From positions 81,541 through 145,540 of the forward strand of contig JAENZX010000001.1 of NCBI GenBank assembly GCA_016841045.1: 64,000 nt of DNA. The letters run 5' to 3'. Position 1 is the stretch's first letter. The number at the start of each line of letters is the position of its first letter. Positions 36,452 to 61,093 of the stretch are shown in pieces. The translations under genes were made by a program, and so were the position numbers. This DNA comes from Thermincola carboxydiphila. Its GTDB lineage: Bacteria; Bacillota; Thermincolia; Thermincolales; UBA2595. The notes beneath the pieces are model-generated. The model saw only the letters and a program-made list of their open reading frames with translations, ran no database searches and was not told the DNA's origin.

Positions 36452-38464
36452 TTAGTAGTTCTGGCATAATTCTGTTTCAAATTTTTCAGCAGTCTTATTA
36501 TGAACACCCAACTTCCAGGTTCTGTACTCCAATGCGCTGAGCAGTTTCTGAGCAGCTATTTTATGGTCAACCTCAAAGATGAAGTAGCCACCGTAAACAT
36601 CACTTGCGATCTGGGTGCAAATACTGTAGAACAGGTCACTGCCCTCAACAGGCGGCAGAGTTCCAACATGAACGGGCATACCGAGAGTCACACACCAGCA
36701 GCCAATAGAAACAGCTTTACCGGACATGGCCTCTGGAGCAGAAGCTATCCATGGAACTTTCGGGGTGTCTACTCCCAATTCATCTGCCATATCCATCAGC
36801 AGGTCGGAACAGCGGGTATTGTCAACACAGGATCCCATATGGAAAACTGCAGGGAGATTCTCCTTGGCTTTACCGTCAAACTGAGCCAGGAACGCCTTCA
36901 AGCCGTCACCGCACAGTGAATCTCTGTTTGCAGGATCCATTAAACCAAGTTTGGCGTACGCCTGGGCGGCACAACCTGTCGCAATAACAAAAACGTTGTT
37001 TTTCAACAGTTCTTTTACAATACCGATGTGGTTTTCGTCCTGAACACCTTTTAGGTTATTGCAGCCTGCCATCAGTGCAACACCCTGAACCTGACCGGAC
37101 AGAATAGCATCGGTTAGAGCTTTAACCGGCTTGTCAGGATTTACGGCAGAGAAAATCTCATAAATTGCTTCCAGGCTAAAACCTGCAACAACCTTATTCT
37201 TAAGTGCCGGTACATATACTCTGGAAGCATCGCGTTCCTTATATGAATCAATAGCCATACGCACGATTTCCTTAGCATCTTCCATCGCAGTATCTACATT
37301 GAAGGGTACATGCATAGTTCCCGGCAGCTTGACGATTGCCTGGGTGGTGATAATTTTGGTATGGAAACAATTAGCCGCTGTAGTAAGACCCGGCATAATG
37401 CACTGTACGTCAACTACCATGGCATCAACAGCACCGGTAGTAATTGCCAGTTCTTGAGAACTAAAGGAAGTGGCTATGGGAACACCCTGACGCATAAGTA
37501 CCTCATTACCTGTACAGCAGATACCGGAGAACTGAATACCGGCAGCACCGGCTTCCTTAGCCTCGTTTTCCAGTTCACGGCCTGCTGCGACAATCATTTC
37601 ACTAAGCAGCGGGTTATGTCCGTGGAGAATAATGTTTACCTTGGCAGGATCGATAACACCTAGATTAGCTTCTGATACCACCGGTTCGGGAGTACCAAAA
37701 AGAACATCAGAGAAATCAGTAGCTATGTGCATACCGGTGTAATCGGCCATAGCAGCTCTTAAAGCACTGAAGGTAATATTAACAGGGTCGTTATCCTGTC
37801 CAACGTGGGCCTGTGCCAACAGATCCGCCATAGCAGACTGGATGCCATTAGGAGTAATGTCACAATCCTCTAGCTTCTGTTTCCTGCCTTCAGTGATAGT
37901 TGATGTACACCATACACATTCACCCATATCAGTGAGAATTCGAAAATCATTAAGGGCCATTTTGGCAGTCTCTTTTGCTATTTCTAAATCAGATTTTCCT
38001 TCTATTTCAATACCAACTCTCTTAGCAACCTTGTGAAGTTTTTTAACATCAGTGATCTTATAGTCTGCTGCTTTGCCTTCTGCCATCTCCAATACAGTAT
38101 GCGCCATATGACGGCCATGCTCGCAGTGAGCAGCACAACCTGTAAGGAGCATAGTTCCTGTGCTTCTGGCTGCAATTGTCCACGCATCGGCGCCACAGAT
38201 ACCTTTGCTCTTAGGTCCTACATCAGCGGTTACACGGCAGGGTCCCATCATACAGAATCGACAGCAGGTACCCTTGTATCCGAACTGGCACTGAGGCTGT
38301 TGGGCAACAGCACGGTCAAAAGCAGTAATAATTCCCTGCTCCTGAGCCCTATCAATCATTTCAAGGGCTGCGGGATCAATCGTACGTTTTACATTTTTGG
38401 GTTCAAAAACCCTTGGTGCGTCTGATGTTTTGCTGGTATGATCAGGGTCTCTAAATCTTGGCAT
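36452..38464 (-). CDS. cooS: CO dehydrogenase catalytic subunit (CODH/ACS alpha)
   Basis: A 670-aa Ni-Fe-S enzyme (AcsA/CooS-III type) interconverting CO and CO2. The D and B cluster cysteines are in CQFGYKGTCCRFCMMGPCRV. C-cluster marks follow: ILHGHNPLL, ICCTGNEVLMRQG, DVQCIMPGL, AGCNNLKG, TGCAAQAYAKLGLM and HMGSCVDNTR. It is followed directly by acsB, so here it serves carbon fixation or acetate metabolism. ATG behind AAGGAGG. Transcription probably starts near 38978, leaving an unusually long leader. Confidence 0.96.
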   Translation of the reverse strand: MPRFRDPDHTSKTSDAPRVFEPKNVKRTIDPAALEMIDRAQEQGIITAFDRAVAQQPQCQFGYKGTCCRFCMMGPCRVTADVGPKSKGICGADAWTIAARSTGTMLLTGCAAHCEHGRHMAHTVLEMAEGKAADYKITDVKKLHKVAKRVGIEIEGKSDLEIAKETAKMALNDFRILTDMGECVWCTSTITEGRKQKLEDCDITPNGIQSAMADLLAQAHVGQDNDPVNITFSALRAAMADYTGMHIATDFSDVLFGTPEPVVSEANLGVIDPAKVNIILHGHNPLLSEMIVAAGRELENEAKEAGAAGIQFSGICCTGNEVLMRQGVPIATSFSSQELAITTGAVDAMVVDVQCIMPGLTTAANCFHTKIITTQAIVKLPGTMHVPFNVDTAMEDAKEIVRMAIDSYKERDASRVYVPALKNKVVAGFSLEAIYEIFSAVNPDKPVKALTDAILSGQVQGVALMAGCNNLKGVQDENHIGIVKELLKNNVFVIATGCAAQAYAKLGLMDPANRDSLCGDGLKAFLAQFDGKAKENLPAVFHMGSCVDNTRCSDLLMDMADELGVDTPKVPWIASAPEAMSGKAVSIGCWCVTLGMPVHVGTLPPVEGSDLFYSICTQIASDVYGGYFIFEVDHKIAAQKLLSALEYRTWKLGVHNKTAEKFETELCQNY

Positions 38465-56666: not shown

Positions 56667-57902
56667 TTACCACAAAATTCTTTGTCCTATTCGTCCTTGT
56701 TTGAGATCATTCTTGGTCTTACCCAGCGGTACTCCTTCTTTGATGAGAGAAGTCAGCACCCCGGCACGTACTGTGTTACCCACCATAATGTAACCTACCA
56801 GCCTATCCCCTTTAAAAATCAGCCTGCGGTATAGGTTGCCACCGGGGAACAGTTTCACAACTTCATAGTTTTCCCCTTCTGCTCTGGTTAAGCCGGCAGC
56901 GATTGTTGACAAACCAAAAAAATCAGCTGAGTTCATGCCCATCGAACCTTCATAAACTGTAGGGGCGCCAGCCATATTTCGCCCTGCTGCAATTCCCTGT
57001 TCTGCAGCATTGGGCCATATTGCATTAATCCTTTTTTCACCGGTTAATACATCTGCAGCCTGAGCTACATCTCCTGCAGCATAAATATCTGGGATATTCG
57101 TTGCCAGATATTCATTAACCAAAATCCCTCTGTCAAGAGCAATACCACTTCCTGACAGAAATCCGGTGTTAGGGGTAACCCCCTTGCCTATTATCACAAC
57201 CTCTGCAGGGATTGTTTCACCTGTAGTCAATCGTACACCTTGTGCGAAAGTTTCTCCATTAATGTCTTTTCCAATTATCTCAACAACATCGGAATAAAAT
57301 TTCACATTCAACCCATTTCTAATGAGCACATCACCCAGAATCCCTGCGGCCTCACTGTCCAGCATCTGTGACAGTATCTGACCTGAAGATACCAAGCAGG
57401 TTACTGTTAAACCGGCTTTCATTAATGCGTAAGCGGCCTTGAGGGACACAAAACCACCGCCCACAACAACCGCTTGTTTACCCTTACCGGTGAAAGCGGT
57501 TATTCCTTTAGCATCTTCCAGTGTACGAAGGCCAAAGACACCTTTCATTCCTACACCCGGTATATCTGGTATGCTGGGTGAGGCGCCGGTAGCAATCAGA
57601 AGCCTGTCATACTTGTAGAGGTGTTCTTTATCTGTGTGCACCTCGCGTTTGGCGGTATCAATACTTGTTACCTTTTGTCCGGTCGTCAGGAAAATCCTGT
57701 TTTGGACATAAAAATCCGCACTTCTGATTAACATCTGCTCATCAGATATATTACCTTCTAGATAGTAGGAGGTCATACATCTTGCGTAGGCAGGATATTT
57801 CTCATCACTGATTATTTCTATCCGGCCTGCTTTATCAACACCGCGAATAGTCTCAGCTGCAAAAACTCCGGCGGCGCTGTTACCTATAATCAAATAGCGC
57901 AT
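56667..57902 (-). CDS. FAD/NAD(P)-dependent oxidoreductase of the coo operon
   Basis: A 411-aa flavoprotein of the pyridine nucleotide-disulfide class (NADH oxidase/ferredoxin reductase-like). FAD-binding MRYLIIGNSAAGVFAAETIR, NAD-binding QAVVVGGGFVSLKAAYALM, second FAD motif IYAAGDVAQAADV. No redox disulfide CxxxxC; RCMTSYY takes that place. Start ATG 57902 behind GGGGGTGG. Similar CooF-CooS-oxidoreductase sets are known in Clostridia and Carboxydothermus and are thought to pass electrons from CO to NAD(P). Confidence 0.9.
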   Translation of the reverse strand: MRYLIIGNSAAGVFAAETIRGVDKAGRIEIISDEKYPAYARCMTSYYLEGNISDEQMLIRSADFYVQNRIFLTTGQKVTSIDTAKREVHTDKEHLYKYDRLLIATGASPSIPDIPGVGMKGVFGLRTLEDAKGITAFTGKGKQAVVVGGGFVSLKAAYALMKAGLTVTCLVSSGQILSQMLDSEAAGILGDVLIRNGLNVKFYSDVVEIIGKDINGETFAQGVRLTTGETIPAEVVIIGKGVTPNTGFLSGSGIALDRGILVNEYLATNIPDIYAAGDVAQAADVLTGEKRINAIWPNAAEQGIAAGRNMAGAPTVYEGSMGMNSADFFGLSTIAAGLTRAEGENYEVVKLFPGGNLYRRLIFKGDRLVGYIMVGNTVRAGVLTSLIKEGVPLGKTKNDLKQGRIGQRILW

Positions 57903-57920
57903 TACGCCACCCCCATTCAT

Positions 57921-59830: not shown

Positions 59831-60337
59831 TTAAGCCTCCTCTCCGGCAATAAACCTTGTCAGGAAATCCTTTTTCCTGCTTTTATCAAATTCATTAACT
59901 TCTGTAAATTTTATGGCCTTTGTCGGACAAGCCTTTACGCAAGCCGGATTATGCCCTTTTGAGAGACATTGGTCACATTTGACTGCCTTTCTGGTATTCT
60001 CACTGGGGACAATAACGCCATATGGACAGACCATAACACACATCCAACAACCTACACACTTTTCCTCCTGGTTTAAAACCAAGCCCGTCGTTTCATCAAT
60101 CCGCATGGCACCGGTCATGCAGGCGGTTACACACTTTGGTTCCCGGCACTGCCTGCACTGCACCGGAATGTTTACCGTGTTCTCCGTATTAGTCTCAACA
60201 CTTACCCTTCTAACGGGTCGTTCCCCTTTTAATACGGCACTGATAATTTCCCCGCTTTCCGAATGAACAGTACTGCATGCCAGTTCACATGACTTGCAGC
60301 CAATACACCGTTCTGTTTTAACCAGTATCTGTTTCAC
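59831..60337 (-). CDS. cooF: CooF-like polyferredoxin
   Basis: A 168-aa iron-sulfur electron carrier with four cluster motifs: CIGCKSCELAC, CRQCREPKCVTAC, CVGCWMCVMVC and CDQCLSKGHNPACVKAC. It accepts electrons from CooS. GTG start at 60337 behind AAGGGGGG. First gene of the operon; its upstream region holds a CooA-type operator and a TACAAT -10 box. Confidence 0.94.
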   Translation of the reverse strand: MKQILVKTERCIGCKSCELACSTVHSESGEIISAVLKGERPVRRVSVETNTENTVNIPVQCRQCREPKCVTACMTGAMRIDETTGLVLNQEEKCVGCWMCVMVCPYGVIVPSENTRKAVKCDQCLSKGHNPACVKACPTKAIKFTEVNEFDKSRKKDFLTRFIAGEEA

Positions 60338-60386
60338 TTATTTCCCCCCTTCTTGTATTCTATATGACGCTTTACATCTAATAATA

Positions 60387-60392
60387 ATTGTA
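60387..60392 (-). promoter_or_regulatory. Candidate -10 box of the cooF promoter
   Basis: TACAAT on the minus strand, with no good -35. If transcription starts near 60380, the CooA-type site centre (60421.5) lies at about -41.5, the class II activation position. Confidence 0.5.
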
Positions 60393-60401
60393 AATTAAAA
60401 A

Positions 60402-60426
60402 CGGCGGGATTTCTGTCATCCCGCCG
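60402..60426 (-). terminator. Terminator of the CooA-like regulator gene
   Basis: Minus strand: CGGCGGGAT-GACAGAA-ATCCCGCCG then TTTTTAATTT, 26 bp after the regulator stop. Its 5' arm overlaps the CooA-type operator. Confidence 0.85.
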
Positions 60427-60429
60427 ACA
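60414..60429. promoter_or_regulatory. CooA-type operator TGTCA-N6-CGACA
   Basis: TGTCA-TCCCGC-CGACA matches exactly the consensus known for Rhodospirillum CooA, and lies between a CooA-like gene and cooF. Confidence 0.75.
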
Positions 60430-60451
60430 TTTTTTGAAGTTGATTTAAAGT

Positions 60452-61093
60452 TTAACTCATCCCAATAAGCTTATCTATGTTCTTAACAACATAATTCTTT
60501 TTGTTTACTGAAATGATCCCTATCGCTTCAAAGCGTTTTAGAATGGTAGTTACTGTCTGCCGTGAACTGCTTATAATACCGGCAATTTCTTCATGAGTTA
60601 ATCCCAGGTAAAATTCTATTCCTTTCTCGGTGCGAACACCTTTTTCTCTTGCTGTTTTTAACAGCAATGAAGCAAGTCTGGAGTTAACTTCTTTAAAAGC
60701 AAGATTAAGCAGGGCATCATTTGTGTTTTTCAGGATGATTCCCAGGATTTTAAACAGACTGACAGATAGTTCCGGAGTCTTCATTAAAATCTTTCTGAAT
60801 CCCTCGGAACTTATATAAAGAATTTCTGCTGGTTCGAGAACTGTTGCATTTGCTTCTGAATGCAGGCTGTACATGTCACCAGGATCTAAAATGGTAACGA
60901 TTATCTCCTTACCTTCTGGTGACAGGTAGGAAATCTTAACACGTCCGGATTTAACAAGGTAAATATAGTCTTGATAAGAATTCTCGAAACTGATTTGCTC
61001 CTTCTTAGCAAAACACGAACTCGAAAAGCAGTCCAAAATTTGAGTTATTTCACTTTCAGACATTCCCTGAAAAATTTTAAACTGTTTGAACAT
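60452..61093 (-). CDS. Crp/Fnr-family regulator, CooA-like (possible CO sensor)
   Basis: A 213-aa protein with an N-terminal cyclic-nucleotide-fold domain and a C-terminal winged HTH (LTHEEIAGIISSSRQTVTTI). Alignment by eye to Rhodospirillum CooA: GDMYSLHSEA matches GDMFCMHSGC, so heme ligand His77 is kept (H78 here) while Cys75 is Ser76. In the recognition helix the position that is Glu in CRP is Gln (Q179), as in CooA (Q178), which fits a TGTCA half-site. It sits directly upstream of cooF-cooS with its own terminator. Heme binding is not proven. Confidence 0.85.
   Translation of the reverse strand: MFKQFKIFQGMSESEITQILDCFSSSCFAKKEQISFENSYQDYIYLVKSGRVKISYLSPEGKEIIVTILDPGDMYSLHSEANATVLEPAEILYISSEGFRKILMKTPELSVSLFKILGIILKNTNDALLNLAFKEVNSRLASLLLKTAREKGVRTEKGIEFYLGLTHEEIAGIISSSRQTVTTILKRFEAIGIISVNKKNYVVKNIDKLIGMS

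Follow-up and report, generated by a model that had tools for sequence, protein, structure and literature searches.

The window analyzed here, that is, the whole 64-kb stretch of DNA from the anaerobic Firmicute Thermincola carboxydiphila, carries on its minus strand, in this order, a gene for a CooA-like regulator, a gap of 114 nt, cooF, cooS and a gene for an FAD/NAD(P) oxidoreductase. The features of the locus are as follows.

60452–61093, minus strand: CooA-like Crp/Fnr regulator of 213 aa, with His78 at the heme ligand position, Ser76 at the Cys75 position and Gln179 in the recognition helix
60414–60429: CooA-type operator, TGTCGGCGGGATGACA on the minus strand and TGTCA-N6-CGACA on the plus strand
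60402–60426, minus strand: hairpin of the predicted intrinsic terminator of the regulator gene, with its 5' arm (60426–60418) inside the operator
60397–60401, minus strand: the terminator's T tract, TTTTT, with AATTT after it
60387–60392, minus strand: putative -10 box TACAAT, starting 21 nt after the operator, with the transcription start predicted near 60380
59831–60337, minus strand: cooF, 4Fe-4S ferredoxin-like protein of 168 aa
57921–59828, minus strand: cooS, catalytic subunit of Ni-CO dehydrogenase, 635 aa (755.8 bits to TIGR01702, above the curated cut-off of 478 for anaerobic CO dehydrogenase)
56667–57920, minus strand: FAD/NAD(P) oxidoreductase of 417 aa, closing the putative operon (gene order common to L021, L022 and L024)

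A second Ni-CO dehydrogenase gene, 47% identical to the first, was found in the window at 36515–38392 on the minus strand, and no TGTC-N8-GACA site was found ahead of it.

The three residues that an earlier note on this DNA had pointed out in the regulator were all confirmed: His78, within YSLHS, aligns with the proximal heme histidine of known CooAs, Ser76 occupies the position of the redox Cys75 of R. rubrum CooA, and Gln179 is located in the recognition helix SRQTVTTIL. Across 31 aligned relatives, neither the heme His nor the recognition-helix Gln varies. The proximal heme histidine is His77 in R. rubrum CooA and His82 in C. hydrogenoformans CooA, while the redox ligand Cys75 is of the R. 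rubrum type only and is not required of the CooA family, of which other members likewise carry Ser. The closest solved relative by sequence is Carboxydothermus CooA-1 (3.4e-34, against 8e-22 for the next family), which is also the top match by profile (8e-50) and by predicted fold (9e-20; pLDDT of the regulator model, 89.6). The CooA/Crp tree proposed in the earlier note supported the assignment: the regulator does not fall into a non-CooA clade, His-bearing and His-less Crp/Fnr proteins being split at 100/99 with a limited outgroup, but its cooF-cooS-linked clade (97/88) is sister to, and not inside, the clade of the two proven CooAs from R. rubrum and Carboxydothermus (100/94). The branch of R. 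rubrum CooA is very long in this tree. On this evidence, the regulator belongs to the CooA family in a broad sense, with its function predicted.

Between the Crp/Fnr gene and cooF, the element TGTCATCCCGCCGACA had been reported at 60414–60429, and its sequence, strand and coordinates were all correct. The minus (coding) strand through the operator region reads TGTCGGCGGGATGACAGAAATCCCGCCGTTTTTAATTTACAAT; within the cooA–cooF gap, the operator TGTCGGCGGGATGACA is followed by GAAATCCCGCCGTTTTTAATT and then by TACAAT. This -10 box begins exactly 21 nt past the operator, and the proposed operator center at -41.5 holds if transcription starts at about 60380. The conserved spacing fits, with the start as predicted, the class II Crp-type position (about -41.5, overlapping the -35 region); an operator of the form TGTCR-N6-YGACA stands in front of the coo genes, where its position is predicted to be an activating one, and a distance of 20–22 nt between operator and -10 box recurs in CooA loci of other lineages. 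The CooA operator consensus is TGTCRNNNNNNYGACR (PMC6085454).

By chance, 64 kb should hold 0.08 copies of the exact motif TGTCA-N6-CGACA. The genome-wide search suggested in the earlier note yielded seven exact copies in 4.16 Mb, about the number given by chance, and this count was discarded as evidence; the other six copies are all inside open reading frames, and no wider CooA regulon was found in the Thermincola carboxydiphila genome. The sole intergenic TGTCA-N6-TGACA site (L002) was rejected as a regulon member, as it looks like a -35 box. The composite pattern of operator, 21 nt and TANNNT occurs only once in the 4.16-Mb genome, at the cooA–cooF gap (reversed-pattern control, 0), and is present in 30 of the 41 genomes with a CooA-like gene, several-fold more than the reversed control. 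In these 41 genomes, many of the matches fall in the gap that follows cooA or at the head of a further coo operon.

The operator region also carries the parts of an intrinsic terminator downstream of the regulator gene, namely a GC-rich hairpin composed of CGGCGGGAT (60426–60418), the loop GACAGAA (60417–60411) and ATCCCGCCG (60410–60402), and directly thereafter TTTTT. The hairpin folds at -17.8 kcal/mol (z -4.7), and none of 200 shuffles was as good. Operator bases 4–12 pair with ATCCCGCCG; the claim that the operator bases are the 5' arm of the terminator therefore stands for nine of the 16 bases, but not for the second half-site (GACA), which opens the loop. In the Thermincola carboxydiphila locus, the search between cooA and cooF revealed no second terminator, and no Rfam family was found at the operator/hairpin site. 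The hairpin is located wholly upstream of the predicted cooF start (about 60380).

Orthologous loci were found in Thermincola (L021, L022, L025–L027), a Peptococcaceae MAG (L023/L028), Ca. Formimonas warabiya (L024) and G113 (L029), and no further orthologues were found in the classes of G113, G112 and G108. The earlier note had made its reading depend on the presence of the site in close relatives, and the operator was identified in every orthologous locus found, always between cooA and cooF. It is kept as TGTC[GA]GCGGG[AC]TGACA, varying at two positions only, both of which are tolerated by the CooA consensus, and its half-sites are intact; the -10 box is TACAAT or TAAAAT, 21–22 nt after the operator. 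Operator, hairpin and spacing are all retained in each of these loci, and because the relatives retain both features together, the overlap looks selected rather than accidental. Both operator changes are matched in the 3' arm of the hairpin, G5 to A by C to T in L029 and A11 to C by T to G in L023/L028, these being the only two compensating changes in the clade, from about five distinct sequences. When the flanks were shuffled with the operator fixed, the observed hairpin was reached in 0 of 150 trials in each of five members; the hairpin of L024 is weaker (z -1.5). Since the 3' arm compensates and shuffled flanks are never as strong, the hairpin looks selected in its own right. The proposal that a protein site and an RNA hairpin share one sequence was thus upheld, the overlap being more than coincidence and the hairpin being kept by compensating changes.

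The whole reading, which we consider probable, is that a CooA sensor activates cooFS from the operator and that the same bases terminate the regulator transcript. The gene at 60452–61093 would encode a CooA-type, heme-based sensor of CO, and the CO-bound dimer would bind to 60414–60429, centered at -41.5, and activate cooF, cooS and the FAD/NAD oxidoreductase gene from a class II promoter with the box TACAAT and a start near 60380. Within the regulator transcript, the operator bases should form, as RNA, the 5' arm of the regulator's intrinsic terminator, and this hairpin would halt read-through from cooA and be missing from transcripts that initiate at the CooA promoter. Because it ends upstream of the predicted start, the hairpin should act on cooA-derived RNA alone, and the level of cooS, but not of cooA, is therefore expected to increase with CO. 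CO dehydrogenase would stay off in the absence of CO despite transcription of the sensor gene immediately upstream. In agreement with the prediction, CO raises cooS6 but not the adjacent upstream cooA in Calderihabitans (PMC7306483). The parts, their conservation, the compensating changes and the spacing are shown by the sequence itself; heme, the binding of CO and DNA, activation and termination are predictions.

It is rather unlikely that the CooA system holds while the hairpin is a by-product, a near-palindromic GC-rich operator and an AT-rich spacer mimicking a terminator that is not used. For the self-palindromic operators of L039, L037, L040 and L059, 21–50% of shuffled flanks yielded a hairpin of -9 kcal/mol or below, which speaks for a by-product, but the stem of the Thermincola clade is not the operator palindrome and depends on a 3' arm of its own beyond the operator. 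Such an arm arose by chance in 0–8% of shuffles, never at the observed strength, and the arm tracks the operator through the compensating changes; that no alternative terminator was found between cooA and cooF also argues against an unused hairpin. The regulator itself could be a CooA look-alike, sensing a signal other than CO or free of heme, to which we assign little likelihood. Its clade is separate from the proven CooAs and it passes no NCBIfam equivalog cut-off, but the heme His is invariant, a gap of CooA size is found at the cAMP-binding place of CRP, the close orthologues all adjoin cooF-cooS, and the operator agrees with the consensus TGTCRNNNNNNYGACR (PMC6085454). Ser in place of Cys75 points in the direction of a look-alike, but family members with YSTH or YSGH are also without Cys.

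An active switch, in which operator-bound CooA obstructs or changes the elongation and termination of the cooA transcript, would link the level or the 3' end of cooA RNA to CO. That CO-bound CooA alters cooA termination in this manner, by roadblock or relief, and that such coupling explains the repeated operator–terminator fusion in CooA lineages, both appear improbable. The nine bases common to binding site and terminator are kept together in all orthologues and the overlap recurs in other lineages, as would suit a switch, but the lineages of L030, L032, L033 and L034 manage without overlap, and the cooA RNA of Calderihabitans is unchanged by CO (PMC7306483). Bound CooA may act on termination directly, although this is unsupported.

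The overlap is not special to the Thermincola-type clade, as it is clearly present in Desulfosporosinus-type loci and probably in Carboxydothermus. In the Desulfosporosinus-type loci (L066–L082 and L088–L090; the genus is presumed from the locus type), a variant of TGTC-N8-GACA serves as operator and forms the center of an inverted repeat whose arms run past it by as much as 14 nt on either side; the -10 box stands at 21 nt. Outside the operator, the pairs of this repeat vary among G-C, A-T and G-T, with a change of T-A to A-T in L071. The inverted repeat of L068 is 44 nt long (-28.9 kcal/mol), is centered on the operator and lies about 12–56 nt past the cooA stop codon, between cooA and cooS. 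In L037 and L039, which are Carboxydothermus-type loci, a T10 run comes after the operator palindrome. Upon shuffling, none of the overlaps of L037, L039, L040 and L059, taken singly, stood clearly beyond chance, and those of L040 and L059, each alone, were rejected as evidence, as not beyond chance.

A separate terminator is located ahead of the operator in L030, L032, L033, L034, L042 and L055. The cooA–cooF terminator of L031, 82–112 nt past the cooA stop codon, extends over the -10 box and start. Transcripts initiated at the CooA promoter would thus miss the 5' arm of this terminator, a candidate alternative form of terminator–promoter fusion. The overlap trait requires at least four changes on the tree. 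Among four independent pairs, the lack of a separate terminator and the overlap went together, as predicted, in a mean of 2.8, with 0 against and 1.2 ties, which is not significant with so few pairs. At CooA-type operators that precede cooM or cooF and do not adjoin cooA (L104, L108, L121, L122, L124), a hairpin with T tract is absent; the absence of the T tract at operators not behind cooA is as expected if it serves cooA termination.

The Thermincola system resembles that of R. rubrum CooA and cooFSCTJ in having a Crp-fold regulator with heme His and recognition-helix Gln and a TGTC-N8-GACA operator upstream of cooF, but the two regulators share about 25% identity by fold alignment and the Thermincola protein has Ser for Cys75. 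For the nearest solved relative, Carboxydothermus hydrogenoformans CooA-1 (2fmy; L039), the operator is likewise downstream of cooA, with the -10 box at 21 nt, and itself forms a hairpin followed by T10; there the operator palindrome itself serves as the stem and cooC comes next, whereas the Thermincola stem is offset, with a separate 3' arm. In Calderihabitans maritimus, TGTC-N8-GACA is located between uninduced cooA and CO-induced cooS6, and a terminator goes unmentioned (PMC7306483). A DNA motif recognized by protein doubles as a terminator stem also in the DNA uptake sequences of Neisseria and Pasteurellaceae (PMC1852404), but these are uptake signals and not an operator, with hundreds of genomic copies against one promoter.

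The sensor and operon are ordinary, while the sharing of operator and terminator appears undescribed. Linkage of cooA and cooS in Firmicutes is known. CooA and its operator have also been described (PMC545781, PMC6085454), but in the literature outside most subscription journals, no description was found of an activator operator doubling as a terminator stem or of CooA with a terminator. One short sequence is under two constraints, protein binding and RNA folding, both exposed by the compensating changes. The recurrence of the overlap across CooA lineages offers a clean test case for the insulation of adjacent genes when the operator of an activator sits directly behind the activator's own gene. 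Anaerobic CO oxidizers thereby also provide a promoter design that is compact, inducible by CO and low in leakage.

A subgroup of CooA-like proteins whose genes lie beside cooS (L043, L044, L046, L047, L048, L051) carries the pocket YSGHTRAFG or FSGHTRAFG and the helix [ST]RQTL in place of RQTV; its operator reads [TC]GTAAA-N4-TTTAC[AG], with the -10 box exactly 21 nt downstream. DNA specificity thus appears to have changed within the CooA family. Two CooA-like genes each, beside different cooS clusters, were found in G433 (L063, L089) and G346 (L064, L085), and in the L059 protein (L059/L101, G436) the residues leading up to the heme histidine read GQVYSEHS, where G[DE] is usual.
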